DNA from: Chloroflexi bacterium OHK40
GTDB taxonomy: Bacteria > Chloroflexota > Chloroflexia > Chloroflexales > Chloroflexaceae
Direction of reading: 5' to 3'
Assembly (NCBI GenBank): GCA_004367505.1
Contig: SFCB01000289.1
Span: forward strand, 1-35,732
DNA length: 35,732 nt
The notes under the pieces are model-generated. The model had not been told where the DNA came from, did not search any database, and worked only from the letters and a program-made list of their open reading frames with translations. This document shows positions 13,580-19,305 of the stretch, piece after piece; the first letter of the stretch is position 1; every line of letters begins with the position of its first letter. The position numbers and the translations under genes were made by a program.

Positions 13580-14986
13580 CTAGCTCAGCCGCACCGTCGC
13601 AAAACGAGCGGCGTAATCGCTCATGCCCTCGGGGGCCACCACTGTTACCGCGCGGCGACCCTGGCGGAGCAGCAGACTCGCGGCGATCGTCGCGCGGGTG
13701 CCACTCTCACAGATCACCGCCAGGGGGCCACGGGGGAGCTCCGGCACGTGCTCGCGTAGCAGCGTGTGGGCGATCAGGCGGGCGCCGGGGATCACGCCCC
13801 TGGCCCACTCAAAGGGTTCGCGCACATCGATCACGGTAGTGGCGCCAGCAACCACCCGCCGTGCCAACTCCTCGACACTGATTTGTTCGAGCGTGGCCAG
13901 GGGCAACCCGAGACCGGCCAATGCTGCGTAGGGAGCGTCCAGATAGCCACGCACCGGGTTCCGGCCCACGCCAGCGAGGATGGCGGCAGCCTCAGCGGCC
14001 ACGGCGGCATCCTCGGCAACAACGAGCACTGGCTCGCCAGGCGCGACAACCGCAGCGGCACGGCTTGGCAGGGCATCCCGGCTAAAAGGCACGGCGAGAG
14101 CGCCCACCAGATGGCCCGCCGCGAAGCGGTCGCGGGGGCGCAGATCGAGCAGCGCCACACCAGTGCTCAGGGCGGCCGCCACCTCAGCCGGGCTGAGTGC
14201 AGGAGCGGCGCCCCGTGGCGCACCGGATGGCCGGGCCGAGCCCTCCGGCAGGGGGAGTAACCCCTGGTTCGTGTGGCGGTGCAGCAGCACACCTTCAACG
14301 GCGGCGCGAGGCACCTCACTCACCCACGCAGCGAACGTGGCGACATCAGGGGCCTGCAACGCCAGGTTGAAGCGTCGCTCAAAGCCGATGGTGCTAGCGA
14401 CCTTGCCGCTCATTGCTCGACCGCCGCATGCCGACCCGCCGAAATGGCCCGGGTAGACCTCAACATCGTCGGGGAGTGCCAGCAAGCGCTCGAAGAGGCT
14501 GCGGTAGAGCGGCTCCGGGCCCGTATCGGGCAGATCCACCAGGTCGGCCCGGCCAACATCGCCTACGAACAGACAATCGCCGGTGAGCACGAACCAGGGC
14601 CGGGCGGCGCGCGGTGGATCGGCCACGAGGTAGCAGGTATGCTCCGGCGTATGGCCGGGAGTATGCAGCGCGGTGACAACCAGGTTGCCCACCCGGAGCT
14701 CGTCGCCATCATCGAGCGGTCGATGGGGGAAGCGCGCCTCAGCGCGGCGCGGCAGGGCGATCGTAGCACCAGTGAGGGCCGCGAGCGCGCGCCCCGTAGA
14801 GATGTAATCGGCGTGGAGGTGCGTCTCCAGCACGATGGTAATGCGCAGCCCGCGATCGGCGGCAAGCAGAGCGTACTGCTCTGCGGGCAGGCTCGGATCA
14901 ACCACCGCCGCCTCGCCGCTGGCGGCGCAGCCAAGGAGGTAGGAGGCAGCCGCAAGCGATTCGTTGAGGAGCTGGCGAAAGATCAT
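13580..14986 (-). CDS. Metallo-beta-lactamase fold / double rhodanese protein (persulfide dioxygenase-like)
   Basis: The 468-residue protein has an N-terminal metallo-beta-lactamase domain (about 1-250) with THLHADY (His56, His58, Asp60), GHTPEH (His112), GDCLFVGD (Asp137) and PGHFGGSACG (His181). The usual fourth His of HxHxDH is Tyr61, which is common in the ETHE1/rhodanese-linked branch, where one iron is bound by the first His, the GHT His and the Asp. Two rhodanese domains follow. The first (about 270-350) has no active-site cysteine; the second has Cys426 in ICESGTRA. The family oxidises or moves persulfide sulfur. The gene starts 17 bases after the Fur-family gene with a GGGAG site and abuts the propeller gene, so the three form one operon. 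Sulfur handling is inferred from the family. Confidence 0.88.
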   Translation of the reverse strand: MIFRQLLNESLAAASYLLGCAASGEAAVVDPSLPAEQYALLAADRGLRITIVLETHLHADYISTGRALAALTGATIALPRRAEARFPHRPLDDGDELRVGNLVVTALHTPGHTPEHTCYLVADPPRAARPWFVLTGDCLFVGDVGRADLVDLPDTGPEPLYRSLFERLLALPDDVEVYPGHFGGSACGGRAMSGKVASTIGFERRFNLALQAPDVATFAAWVSEVPRAAVEGVLLHRHTNQGLLPLPEGSARPSGAPRGAAPALSPAEVAAALSTGVALLDLRPRDRFAAGHLVGALAVPFSRDALPSRAAAVVAPGEPVLVVAEDAAVAAEAAAILAGVGRNPVRGYLDAPYAALAGLGLPLATLEQISVEELARRVVAGATTVIDVREPFEWARGVIPGARLIAHTLLREHVPELPRGPLAVICESGTRATIAASLLLRQGRRAVTVVAPEGMSDYAARFATVRLS

Positions 14987-15003: not shown

Positions 15004-15432
15004 CTACCCCTGACAGCCGGCACAGAGCCCGAAGATCGAGAGGTGGGCGAGGCGGGCATCGAAACGGTAGCGCTGCAGCAACTCACGCCGCAGCGGCTCG
15101 AGCAGGCCCGGATCGGCCTCGATCACCTCGCCGCATCCCTCACAGACGAGGTGATGGTGGTGATGGCGGCTGAGCAGCGCGTAGACCATATGGCTCTGGC
15201 CGAGGCTCGTCTCGCTCACGAGGCCGGCGTCGCGCAGCCAGCGCAGCGTACGGTAGACCGTCGTATGGTCGATGCGCAGGCTCGGGTAGCGCTCCGCGAT
15301 CGCGCGGCTGATCTCCTCAGCGCTCATGTGGTGCTCGTTGCCTTGCAACGCCTCAAGCACCAGACGACGCTGTGGGGTGAGCCGGTGGCCCCCGGCTCGC
15401 AACTGCTCAATCAGGCTGACATGCTCGTCCAT
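15004..15432 (-). CDS. Fur-family metalloregulator
   Basis: From the ATG at 15432 the protein is 142 residues. The N-terminal winged helix contains HRLTPQRRLVLEAL and DHTTVYRTLRWLRDAGLVSE, the family recognition region. The dimerisation domain has HHHHH (90-94) followed by LVCEGCGEVIE. Two CxxC pairs (Cys97/Cys100 and Cys137/Cys140) would hold the structural zinc. The cognate metal (Fe, Zn, Ni or Mn) cannot be read from this alone. It heads an operon with the MBL/rhodanese and propeller genes and diverges from a cobalt/nickel transporter. An inverted repeat covers its own transcription start region and shares a core with one at the transporter promoter. This favours a nickel/cobalt- or zinc-sensing role with autoregulation. 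The upstream in-frame start at 15510 is rejected because the promoter lies in between. Confidence 0.92.
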   Translation of the reverse strand: MDEHVSLIEQLRAGGHRLTPQRRLVLEALQGNEHHMSAEEISRAIAERYPSLRIDHTTVYRTLRWLRDAGLVSETSLGQSHMVYALLSRHHHHHLVCEGCGEVIEADPGLLEPLRRELLQRYRFDARLAHLSIFGLCAGCQG

Positions 15433-15438
15433 GGGTGT

Positions 15439-15465
15439 ACCTGTATGATGTTGCAGGTGATTATA
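15439..15465 (-). promoter_or_regulatory. fur-operon -10 box with overlapping operator
   Basis: On the minus strand TATAAT (15465-15460) is followed after one base by the inverted repeat ACCTG-N10-CAGGT (15458-15439). The repeat contains the core TGCAAC-N6-CAGGTA and covers the predicted start site. The same core occurs at the cbiM promoter in the same relative place. No convincing -35 box was identified. Confidence 0.6.
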
Positions 15466-15533
15466 GGCAGCGCTGCCACCCGCGTCAATGGAGAGGCCCG
15501 GCGAGGGCATATCCGATGGTCCTGCATCAGCGT

Positions 15534-15712
15534 ACCGTGGCGCTGAAGCGCGCGGCTACAGGGCGGCGAAGCCCGCCCGCGCGGGCTCCCGAGGTGGTTG
15601 TCACGCCCGTAGACGCGGGCGTCCAGGGGCAACGCCGGACGCCCTGCTCGGAGCTCGGCTCCCCATCCAAGCGGGGACCGGCCCCTTGCCCGCGCGCGCT
15701 CCCATACGGCGG
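15534..15712 (+). repeat. Dispersed repeat R2, copy between fur and cbiM
   Basis: This element fills most of the 438-base gap between the divergent fur and cbiM operons (15433-15870). It starts CCGTGGCGCTGAAGCGCGCG and contains the palindromic GAAGCCCGCCCGCGCGGGCT and CACGCCCGTAGACGCGGGCG hairpins. A copy of more than 150 bases lies inverted at about 19465-19624, and its first 45 bases recur at 32350-32392. It leaves both flanking promoters intact. Confidence 0.8.
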
Positions 15713-15793
15713 GGCCACGTGCGGGGCTGCACAGCGGGCGATTCTCGCAAGAAGCATGCCCGAACATCCAGCACACTCCCGCCATCCGCACTA

Positions 15794-15845
15794 TTGTTCA
15801 GGAAAGTACTCTGGCGTATAATGCCGAATGCAACCATGTGCAGAT
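15794..15845 (+). promoter_or_regulatory. cbiM promoter with putative Fur-family operator
   Basis: TTGTTC (15794-15799), a 17-base spacer and a perfect TATAAT (15817-15822) form a near-consensus promoter. Six bases later comes TGCAAC-N6-CAGATA (15829-15846), matching the core at the divergent fur promoter in sequence, spacing and orientation. The leader to the ATG at 15871 is only about 42 bases, too short for a cobalamin or NiCo riboswitch. Confidence 0.7.
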
Positions 15846-15870
15846 AGCATACATAGTAGGGGAGCGCGCG

Positions 15871-16872
15871 ATGCTCTTCGAGAATCTGGCCCAGCAGATC
15901 CTGCTCGGGCTCCACATCCCGGACGGCTTCCTTTCGGTGCCGGTCTCGGCGCTCTGGTGGATTTTGACGATCGCAGCCCTCGCTGTGGCAGTGCGGCAGG
16001 TAGACGGCCTGAGTGAGCGTCAGATCCCGCTGATGGGTGTGATGGCGGCCTTCATCTTTGCTGGCCAGATGCTCAACTTCCCCATTCCAGGCGGCACCTC
16101 GGGCCACCTGCTCGGCGGTGCCCTCGCCGCGCTCCTGCTAGGCCCCTGGGCCGCATCGCTGGTGATGGCCTGCGTGGTGGCATTGCAGGCGCTGCTGTTC
16201 CAGGACGGCGGGCTGCTCGTTCTGGGGGCCAACATCTTTAACATGGGCATCGCCACGGCCTTCGTGGGCTGGTGGGTGGGCACCGCACTGCTACGCGCCT
16301 TCGGTGGCCAGCGGTGGGGCCTCGTGGCCGCAGGCTTTGTGGCCGGGTGGGTCTCGCTGATGGTGGCGGCCATCCTCACCAGCGTGCAACTGGTGCTCTC
16401 CGGGCTCTCGGCGGCCATAGTCTTCCCGGCGATGCTCGGCGTCCACGCCGTGATCGGCATCGGCGAGGGCCTGATCACCGCAGCTGCCCTGGCCTTTGTA
16501 GTCGCGACCCGCCCCGACCTGGCCAGCACGCTCACCGGCTCCCTGGGCACTGACGCGGCCCGCCGTGGCGTGGGCCGTGGCGCCCTGGCCGGCATCACCG
16601 GGGTTGGCCTCGCCATCGCCGCCGGCCTGGCCCTGCTCTCGCCACTCGCCTCTGGCGACCCGGACGGGCTCGAGCGCGTCGCGGAGGATCAGGGGTTCCT
16701 GGAGCGAGCCCAGGACCCGGCCTACAACGTGTTGCCCGACTATACCATCCCCGGGCTCGATGGCCCGATCTCGACGATCGTGGCGGGCATCGTCGGGCTG
16801 CTGATCGTCTTTGCAATCGCCTACGGAGTCACGCTGCTCCTGCGCGGCAATAAGGCTGAAACGCCCCGATGA
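15871..16872 (+). CDS. cbiM: Cobalt/nickel ECF transporter substrate-binding subunit, CbiM-PDGLE (CbiMN) fusion
   Basis: The 333-residue membrane protein has the CbiM/NikM core with LHIPDGFLSVPVSALWW, whose His normally lies at position 2 after the initiator Met and helps bind the metal. Other family segments are NFPIPGGTSGHLLGGALAALLLGPWAA and HAVIGIGEGLITAAAL. Near residue 265 comes PDGLERVAEDQGFLERA, the PDGLE (CbiN-like) domain, which ends in one more membrane helix. The ATG at 15871 follows a GGGGAG site; it adds 14 residues before the His, unlike the usual MHIPDGF start, so N-terminal processing or a flexible extension is possible. It captures Co2+ or Ni2+ for CbiQ/CbiO. Its stop overlaps the cbiQ start (ATGA). 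Which metal is carried is not decided by the sequence. Confidence 0.92.
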   Translation: MLFENLAQQILLGLHIPDGFLSVPVSALWWILTIAALAVAVRQVDGLSERQIPLMGVMAAFIFAGQMLNFPIPGGTSGHLLGGALAALLLGPWAASLVMACVVALQALLFQDGGLLVLGANIFNMGIATAFVGWWVGTALLRAFGGQRWGLVAAGFVAGWVSLMVAAILTSVQLVLSGLSAAIVFPAMLGVHAVIGIGEGLITAAALAFVVATRPDLASTLTGSLGTDAARRGVGRGALAGITGVGLAIAAGLALLSPLASGDPDGLERVAEDQGFLERAQDPAYNVLPDYTIPGLDGPISTIVAGIVGLLIVFAIAYGVTLLLRGNKAETPR

Positions 16873-17684
16873 CGCTCGCACCCTCGGCACTCGACCGCTA
16901 TATCGACAGCAAGAGCCCGGTCCACGCGCTCGACGCGCGGGTGAAGCTCCTGCTTACGCTGGCCTGCATCCTGGCGCTAGGCCTGTTACCACCCGGCGCG
17001 TGGGCCGGCATCGCCACAATCGCCACGATCCTGTGGTGGGCCGTGCTACGCGCCCGGATCGGGCTGGGCCTGGTGATGCGCCGGGCGTTTGTGGCGCTGC
17101 CCTTTGCGCTGGTGGCGCTCACGCTCGTCTTCAGCCGCCCGGGGGTCCCGCTCCTTCGCCTGCCGCTCGGCCCACTCACCCTCACCGCCACCGACGCGGG
17201 ACTGATCGCCTTTGCCAGCGTGCTCGTGAAGTCGTGGCTCTCGGTGCAGGCCGCCCTGCTCCTCACCGCCACCACGCACTTCACCGACGTGCTCCACGCG
17301 CTCCGGGCCCTGCGCCTTCCGGCTGTGCTGGTGGCCATCCTCTCCTTCGCCTACCGCTACCTCTTCGTGCTGGTGGATGAAGCCCAGCGCATGCTCCGGG
17401 CTCGCGAGTGCCGCTCAGCCGAGCTCCCCGGCCAGCGCCCAGGTGGCAGCATCGTCTGGCGCGCCACTGTGGTGGGCCAGATGGTCGGCACGCTGTTTCT
17501 GCGCTCCTACGAGCGCAGCGAGCGCATCTACGTGGCAATGCTCTCCCGAGGCTACAGCGGCGAACTGCGCGCGCTTCACCACCGCCCCCTCAGCCGTCGC
17601 GAGCAGGGCCTGCTCTTCGTTGGCGGGGGCATCCTCGCGGCGATCGTCTTCCTGACCTATGTGGCCGGTGGGGGGCCACGCTAA
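16869..17684 (+). CDS. cbiQ: ECF transporter transmembrane subunit CbiQ
   Basis: The 271-residue protein has an N-terminal soluble start (YIDSKSPVHALDARVKLLLTLACI, with the conserved HxxDxRxKL pattern), five to six membrane segments and two cytoplasmic coupling helices. The coupling helices carry AQRMLRARECRS (about residue 175) and SERIYVAMLSRGYSGE (about 215); the conserved Ala-Arg/Ser-Arg groups dock on the ATPase. It is the T component that links CbiM to CbiO. The start overlaps the cbiM stop by four bases, so the pair is translationally coupled. A conserved hydrophobic helix at the end is followed by 42 bases before cbiO. Confidence 0.92.
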   Translation: MTLAPSALDRYIDSKSPVHALDARVKLLLTLACILALGLLPPGAWAGIATIATILWWAVLRARIGLGLVMRRAFVALPFALVALTLVFSRPGVPLLRLPLGPLTLTATDAGLIAFASVLVKSWLSVQAALLLTATTHFTDVLHALRALRLPAVLVAILSFAYRYLFVLVDEAQRMLRARECRSAELPGQRPGGSIVWRATVVGQMVGTLFLRSYERSERIYVAMLSRGYSGELRALHHRPLSRREQGLLFVGGGILAAIVFLTYVAGGGPR

Positions 17685-17726: not shown

Positions 17727-18482
17727 GTGCTCGATCTCGCTGAGCCACATACGGACCAGCCAGCGCCCACCGTCGCCATGCTCGAACTGCGCGGCCTGCA
17801 CTACACCTATCCTGACGGCACCCCGGCACTCCGGGGCGTTTCGCTGCGCGTGTGCGCTGGCGAGAAGGTGGCGCTCGTCGGCCCGAACGGCGCCGGCAAG
17901 AGCACGCTGCTCCTGCACCTGAACGGCGTGCTGCGCGCGCCCGAGGGGGCCGTGCTGGTGGATGGCGCCCCGGTCGCCGATACGACGATCCGCCAGGTGC
18001 GCGCGCGCGTCGGTCTGGTCTTCCAGGACCCCGATGACCAACTCTTCTCGCCGACGGTCTTCGACGATGTGGCTTTTGGGCCCTTGCATATGGGCCTCGG
18101 TGAAGCCGAGGTGCGCGAGCGCGTGGCCCGGGCCCTGGCCCAGGTAGGCATGGCGGGGTTCGAGCGGCGCATGCCACACCACATGAGCCTCGGCCAGCGC
18201 AAGCGCGTCGCCATCGCCACCGTGCTCGCGATGGATCCGGCGCTGCTGGCGCTCGACGAGCCCTCGGCCGGGCTCGATCCGCGAGCGCGGCGTGGGCTTG
18301 TGCAACTGCTGCGCGATCTGCCCCAGGCGATGATCGTCTCCACCCATGATATGCGCCTCGTCGCCGAGGTCTTCCCCCGTATGGTCGTCCTTGCGGAAGG
18401 CCAGGTCGCCTACGACGGACCCAGCGCGCCGTTTCTCGCCGACAGCGCCCTGCTGGAGCGCTACGGGCTAGAGCGGCCCTGA
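17727..18482 (+). CDS. cbiO: ECF transporter ATPase CbiO
   Basis: The 251-residue ABC ATPase has Walker A at 52-60 (GPNGAGKST), a Q-loop in VFQDPDDQLFSPTVFDDVAFGP, a signature region MSLGQRKRVAIA in which LGQRKR replaces LSGGQ (common in CbiO), Walker B LLALDEPSAGLD and the switch His in STHDM. It powers Co/Ni uptake with CbiMN and CbiQ. The GTG start at 17727 is preferred because GAGGGGAT lies just upstream; an ATG 17 codons later (17778) has no ribosome site. It is the last gene of the transporter operon, and no cobalamin or nickel-enzyme gene follows. Confidence 0.92.
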   Translation: MLDLAEPHTDQPAPTVAMLELRGLHYTYPDGTPALRGVSLRVCAGEKVALVGPNGAGKSTLLLHLNGVLRAPEGAVLVDGAPVADTTIRQVRARVGLVFQDPDDQLFSPTVFDDVAFGPLHMGLGEAEVRERVARALAQVGMAGFERRMPHHMSLGQRKRVAIATVLAMDPALLALDEPSAGLDPRARRGLVQLLRDLPQAMIVSTHDMRLVAEVFPRMVVLAEGQVAYDGPSAPFLADSALLERYGLERP

Positions 18483-18567: not shown

Positions 18568-19305
18568 ATGACGTCTCTGGCCGGCCCGATCGTCCTGGTA
18601 GGCTCGGGCGAGTACACCCCCGCGATGGAGAGCACGGACCGGCTGCTTCTGGGGTCCCTGGGCCGCCCACGTGCGCGCGTGGCGCTCATCCCGGCCGCCA
18701 GCGGCCTGGAGCCTGGCAGTCCCGAGCGCTGGAACACCATGGGCGCGATCCACTTCGCCGCCCTCGGCGCCGAGCCGGTGCCGCTTCCACTCCTCACCCG
18801 CGAGGATGCCTACGCCCCCGCCATACTGAATGGCCTGCATGGCGCTGATCTCTACTACTTTTCAGGCGGCAACCCGGAGCACCTGGTGGAAACACTGCGC
18901 GAGACACCGGCCTGGGCGATCATCGCGGCAGCCCACACGGCCGGGGCGGGCGTGGCCGGTTGCAGCGCCGGTGCGATGATGCTTGGCGCTCACACGCTGC
19001 GCGTGCGCGCCGTGGCGGCTGGCCACCCCCCGAACTGGATCCCGGCGCTCGGCCTGGCGGCCCCCCTGGTGGTCTTGCCCCACTTCGACCGTATGGCGAG
19101 CTACGTGAGCCAGGAGGTTTTCCGCACGGTCATCGCATCGGCGCCAGCTGGCGATCAACTCATCGGTATCGATGAGGACACCGCCCTGTTGCGGCTCGCC
19201 CCTGGCCAGCCCTGGCGTGTCAGCGGACGGCAGGGTGTCACTCTGTTCGGCGCTGGTGGCGCAACGACGGTCTACCGGGCGGGCGATCTGGTATCGCTAC
19301 CATAA
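18568..19305 (+). CDS. Peptidase S51 / cyanophycinase-like protein
   Basis: The 245-residue protein belongs to the class I glutamine-amidotransferase-like fold of the S51 peptidases (PepE, cyanophycinase). It opens with GPIVLVGSGEYTP, has the GGNPEHLVETL turn, the nucleophile elbow GCSAGAM (Ser133) and LPHFDRM (His172) as the likely catalytic His. These enzymes cleave aspartyl dipeptides or beta-aspartyl links. Here the substrate is unknown; the sequence is too short and diverged to call cyanophycinase. It lies 85 bases after cbiO, with an AAGGA site before the ATG, and could be read through from the transporter operon. Confidence 0.8.
   Translation: MTSLAGPIVLVGSGEYTPAMESTDRLLLGSLGRPRARVALIPAASGLEPGSPERWNTMGAIHFAALGAEPVPLPLLTREDAYAPAILNGLHGADLYYFSGGNPEHLVETLRETPAWAIIAAAHTAGAGVAGCSAGAMMLGAHTLRVRAVAAGHPPNWIPALGLAAPLVVLPHFDRMASYVSQEVFRTVIASAPAGDQLIGIDEDTALLRLAPGQPWRVSGRQGVTLFGAGGATTVYRAGDLVSLP

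Follow-up and report, generated by a model that had tools for sequence, protein, structure and literature searches.

To our knowledge, Nur, a nickel-responsive repressor of the Fur family, has been characterised mainly in Streptomyces. Its targets are nikABCDE and sodF (PMC7055735), and the sequence that it recognizes, the Nur box, is tTGCaa-N5-ttGCAA (PMC3919588). A survey of nickel and cobalt utilization counted seven nickel-using Chloroflexi genomes, with no nickel-specific Cbi/NikMNQO system assigned to Chloroflexi and three left unassigned (PMC2667541). The locus described here, from Chloroflexi bacterium OHK40 (contig SFCB01000289.1), offers a specific assignment for Chloroflexota, in which a predicted Nur-clade repressor, a putative operator and a transporter are found together. 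It lies within a stretch of 35,732 nucleotides that was analysed as a whole and is referred to as the window. Judging from sequence comparison, it is quite likely that the protein, when loaded with metal, represses a NikMN/CbiM-type ECF transporter by way of a palindrome placed just past the promoter.

The features of the locus are collected in Table 1. The -35 hexamer of the cbiM promoter (TTGTTC) matches the consensus at 3/6 positions, and the promoter was missed by the promoter scan. The cbiMQO cluster gave no CbiN match with Pfam, and the CbiN-named NCBIfam models match it, but below cut-off. In CbiM of the window type, about 13 residues precede the His of the Met-His-Ile-Pro motif (MLFENLAQQILLGLHIPDGFL; window 15871-15930, L098 12147-12200), which is the usual N-terminal metal motif of CbiM. 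Synteny places the S51-peptidase gene at an equivalent position in L092, L093 and L095. On the other side of the locus, a metallo-beta-lactamase/rhodanese (persulfide-dioxygenase-like) gene (13580-14986) starts 17 bases past nur and is probably co-transcribed with it. This gene is not adjacent to nur in relatives, where genes for an LVIVD-repeat protein and a YigZ-like protein are found instead; both of these are also present in the window, farther along from nur.

Table 1. Coordinates of the regulator and transporter genes, their promoters and the candidate operators (positions are those of the window).
Feature	Position	Strand	Remarks
nur-like fur gene	15004..15432	(-)	142 aa, ATG at 15432; Fur-family metalloregulator
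nur promoter TTGACG-N17-TATAAT	15460..15488	(-)	11/12 consensus positions (promoter scan)
candidate operator at nur promoter, TGCAACATCATACA	15442..15455	(-)	8/10 to TGCAA-N4-TTGCA
inverted repeat ACCTG-N10-CAGGT	15439-15458		encloses nur-promoter operator
cbiM promoter TTGTTC-N17-TATAAT	15794..15822	(+)	weak -35; TATAAT kept in relatives
candidate operator at cbiM promoter, TGCAACCATGTGCA	15829..15842	(+)	9/10 to TGCAA-N4-TTGCA
cbiM/nikMN-type S-component gene, fused C-terminal PDGLE domain	15871..16872	(+)	PF01891 221 bits, PF13190 60 bits
cbiQ, ECF transmembrane T component	16869..17684	(+)	TIGR02454 above cut-off
cbiO, ECF ATPase	17727..18482	(+)	TIGR01166 above cut-off
S51-peptidase (cyanophycinase-like) gene	18568..19305	(+)	PF03575; final gene of the cluster

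The regulator matches PF01475 with 96 bits (cut-off 23), and it has the features of the Fur superfamily, namely a winged helix and a dimerisation domain in its AlphaFold model and four invariant cysteines in CxxC pairs. Among PDB sequences, S. coelicolor Nur (3EYY) matches it best (99 bits vs 78 for the next entry), and of the full-length experimental structures Nur is likewise the closest to the model (Z 14.9, 41% identity), a modelled Fur entry, 9a4a, tying with it (Z 15.3 vs 14.9). In a phylogenetic tree that took in one experimentally studied Nur only, the window protein, its Chloroflexota relatives and Nur form a single 20-row clade (support 98/97) that excludes Fur, PerR and Zur-like proteins. 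The M-site of Nur, which we take to be His33, His86, His88 and His90 (checked against the chain numbering of 3EYY), has all four histidines in the window protein, those at 33, 88 and 90 being invariant and that at 86 variable among relatives. In the Ni-site, taken likewise to be His70, His72 and His126, only the equivalent of His126 is conserved, and the other two positions carry Glu and Ser. The Ni-site of Nur is possibly a crystallisation artefact (PMC7055735). The half-sites of the palindrome agree with those of the Nur box, but the spacing is N4, not N5. Because the Ni-site and the box spacing were both tested and neither corresponds to Nur, the name Nur-clade regulator is preferred; the protein is best regarded as a member of the clade that is predicted to work like Nur, and not as Nur proper.

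A sequence-only reading of the window had drawn attention to an element, TGCAAC-N6-CAGRTA, following TATAAT at both promoters, and had likened its first half to Nur half-sites. Exact copies do occur there, separated from the -10 box by 4 bases at fur (minus strand) and 6 bases at cbiM, and they are the only two in the window (TGCAACATCATACAGGTA, 15455-15438, minus strand; TGCAACCATGTGCAGATA, 15829-15846, plus strand). The inverted repeat ACCTG-N10-CAGGT that it described at the fur site is likewise present. Alignment of 19 sites upheld the TGCAA half, with Nur-like half-sites in the conserved core, but the CAGRTA half turned out to be mostly incidental. The conserved core is the palindrome TGCAA-N4-TTGCA, both halves of which are conserved and followed by A or G; besides the window, only two Oscillochloris-type genomes, both close relatives, have CAGATAG 3' of the core.

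Counts of the original motif need to be read with care. Across the whole 6.93-Mb genome it has three exact matches, a figure that is partly circular because the motif was derived from the two sites in the window, and the independent support for the putative element is the comparative evidence. With two mismatches allowed, the full motif was found at 494 places vs 309 for the reversed control and was rejected as too loose for a genome-wide element, and TGCAA-N4-TTGCA with one mismatch allowed is not enriched alone (49 vs 61 in the control). Specificity arises only from the palindrome and the -10 box combined. TATAATN{3,7}TGCAA occurs at three places in the genome, two of them being the nur and cbiM promoters and the third lying in front of a GreA-like gene, and is thus not a frequent sequence without a link to metal genes. 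The site at the GreA-like gene, with a poor second half (palindrome 7/10), was judged to be due to chance.

For the comparative evidence, relatives of the regulator and of CbiM, together with surrounding DNA, were drawn from 41 genomes of the window's family. The search upstream of cbiM in related genomes, which the sequence-only reading had proposed, found the palindrome in regulator-bearing relatives. In six regulator-bearing genomes, that of the window included (G000, G033, G034, G029, G030 and G017), it lies 5-6 bases past a perfect TATAAT at cbiM, and it scores 9/10 in the window and G017 and 10/10 in G033, G034, G029 and G030. These scores were matched by shuffled upstream regions in 0-1.1% of trials (p 0.006 for the window). 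In G017 and G030 the regulator and the transporter are on separate contigs, and the operator is nonetheless at cbiM. The exact pattern TATAATN{3,8}TGCAANNNNTTGCA was found at four places in the 41 family genomes, all of them cbiM promoters (reversed control, 0), and at five places in 158 genomes of the class, four being at cbiM promoters. The fifth, before a CaiB-like gene in G068, was judged to be a chance match because the best match to the regulator in that genome is only 34% identical. Of the genomes with the regulator, 8/9 carry the operator at cbiM, vs 1/11 of those without the regulator (Fisher p 0.0009, kinship uncorrected), and the 10 operator-less genomes of the latter 11 include Chloroflexus-type ones. 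There are two exceptions: G032 has a cbiM operator (9/10; L110 7316-7329) with no regulator and Zur only, the regulator being either gone from the genome, it would seem, or missing from the assembly, and G021 has the regulator without an operator at its cbiM.

At the fur promoters, the search of related genomes went against expectation, as comparison of upstream regions found that in the nearest relatives (G033, G034, G036 and G037) the nur promoter has no operator. The earlier proposal that the regulator represses both operons therefore fares differently at its two ends: at cbiM it is supported by the specificity of the site, co-occurrence, phylogeny and the absence of a riboswitch, while for fur itself the case is weaker, since the closest relatives do not share the site. 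Autorepression of nur may well be a local feature of the window's genome, and is considered fairly likely there. Sites resembling TGCAA-N4-TTGCA, either clustered or perfect, were also seen elsewhere, in G027 before a gene of the SBP_bac_5 family (NikA/OppA-type; L104 3754-3812) and in G021 upstream of a disrupted lipoprotein gene that diverges from nur (L099 1945-1958), and these two genes are possible further targets. In G029, a gene for a His-rich cation-efflux (CDF) protein (L098 10253-11392, minus strand) is directly upstream of nur, between nur and cbiM.

The operator has been preserved while transporter genes were replaced. In G036 and G037, cbiMQO has been replaced in situ by a non-orthologous cbiMQO, 33-35% identical (L091 10311-13500; L095 2117-6147), but the sequence of the promoter has been retained along with an operator that is weaker (8/10), and nur is on one side; in G037 (L095) the S51 gene is retained on the other flank. 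The replacement CbiM in L091 and L095 begins MHIPDGY, unlike CbiM of the window type. Among more distant Chloroflexota, the regulator heads an uptake operon with cbiM genes in L100, L102, L103 and L150 and an operon with a NicO-family transporter in L152, the palindrome lying before the regulator in all five. In L153 (5960-9351), from Dehalococcoidia, a Nur-clade regulator preceded by CGCAATTAATTGCA is followed by genes for ZnuA, an ABC ATPase and an ABC-3 permease, and the metal specificity of this regulator may have shifted. It could tentatively be speculated that the Nur-clade regulator of Chloroflexota, sensing metal through the M-site only, kept one operator as transporters were swapped repeatedly, its specificity shifting with the transporter. 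On the same tentative reading, the exchanged transporters would be CbiMN-QO, the non-orthologous CbiMQO that took its place, NicO and a ZnuABC-type system.

If the window is taken by itself, the shared element might be a promoter feature or a chance likeness rather than an operator: there are two sites only, the motif was derived from those same sites, and the one at fur is imperfect (8/10). Such an origin is extremely improbable in view of the conservation of the palindrome across genera at a fixed distance from the -10 box, the genome-wide exclusivity of the two in combination, the retention of the site when the operon was replaced in situ, and the lack of the site where the regulator is absent. 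The preference for a protein regulator over a riboswitch, voiced in the sequence-only reading, is borne out in that no Rfam riboswitch was found at gathering level in the window or near orthologues of window-type cbiM, and the leader from the expected start site to the ATG of cbiM at 15871 is only about 40 nt.

An operator for a metal-loaded repressor thus remains the preferred reading, and the metal that it answers to had been given as Ni, Co or Zn. Nickel is rather likely to be the main signal. It is probably favoured by the Nur clade, the [NiFe]-hydrogenase encoded in the window's genome (urease, as another nickel demand, is absent from that genome), the PDGLE-type N domain, the NicO transporter of one relative and the placement of the family's remaining cbiM paralogs in cobalamin operons that have RF00174 riboswitches close by, as against none near orthologues of window-type cbiM. 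The same circuit might instead have cobalt, or cobalt and nickel, as co-repressor and transported metal and feed B12 synthesis. The transporter is CbiM-type, and as the genome has this one CbiM only, it might serve cobalt too; a cobalamin riboswitch elsewhere in the genome implies that B12 is in use. Cobalt is nevertheless unlikely, as the regulator groups with nickel-specific Nur, window-type cbiM has no adjacent cobalamin riboswitch, the N domain is PDGLE and not of the classical CbiN family, and the second cbiM of relatives stays in B12 operons. The zinc part of the earlier claim is unlikely to hold, because the genome has a separate Zur (C203), which sits divergently beside znuABC and falls in a different clade; for this reason the window regulator was rejected as a Zur. 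The CbiM family is known to carry Co and Ni. A zinc sensor with a transporter that imports zinc or several metals finds some encouragement in the distant L153, with its ZnuA and ABC-3 genes beneath a similar site, which means that the metal may differ within the clade, but for the window it is very unlikely.

With nickel as the most likely metal, the circuit would work as follows. When metal is sufficient, the metal-loaded dimer would bind the TGCAA-N4-TTGCA palindromes, which begin 4-6 bases past the -10 box and so would cover the expected transcription start of both promoters. The bound dimer would block RNA polymerase, and the NikMN-type cbiMQO operon for uptake would be switched off, as would probably, in the window's genome, nur. 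When metal is scarce, the apo-protein would leave and uptake would be switched on.

Several known systems resemble parts of this arrangement. NikR-controlled nikMNQO and nikABCDE also have a metal-loaded repressor adjoining a nickel uptake operon (PMC2667541), but NikR is a ribbon-helix-helix protein, and both its family and its operator are unrelated to those described here. In cobalamin-riboswitch-controlled cbiMQO the operon under control is alike, and this arrangement occurs near the other cbiM paralog of relatives, but the control element is an RNA, absent at window-type cbiM. Zur with znuABC shares the Fur family and the divergent layout of regulator and transporter, and is a different protein and locus within the window's genome. 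The nickel transporter NikMNQO is marked by a NikM-type S component with NikN in place of CbiN; CbiM of the window, a candidate for such a component, is fused to PDGLE and gives no Pfam match to CbiN, and CbiN-named NCBIfam models match below cut-off. The closest parallel is Nur of S. coelicolor. The two differ in the operator (tTGCaa-N5-ttGCAA vs TGCAA-N4-TTGCA), in the Ni-site, where His70/His72 become Glu/Ser in the window protein, and in the target, since the window has cbiMQO, an operon for an ECF transporter, and a sod target was not seen. They are alike in belonging to one supported clade of the Fur family, in the M-site histidines, in a palindromic operator of the TGCAA type over promoters and in a probable nickel-uptake target, and a Nur-type system, known from actinobacteria, would thereby be extended to the phylum Chloroflexota.
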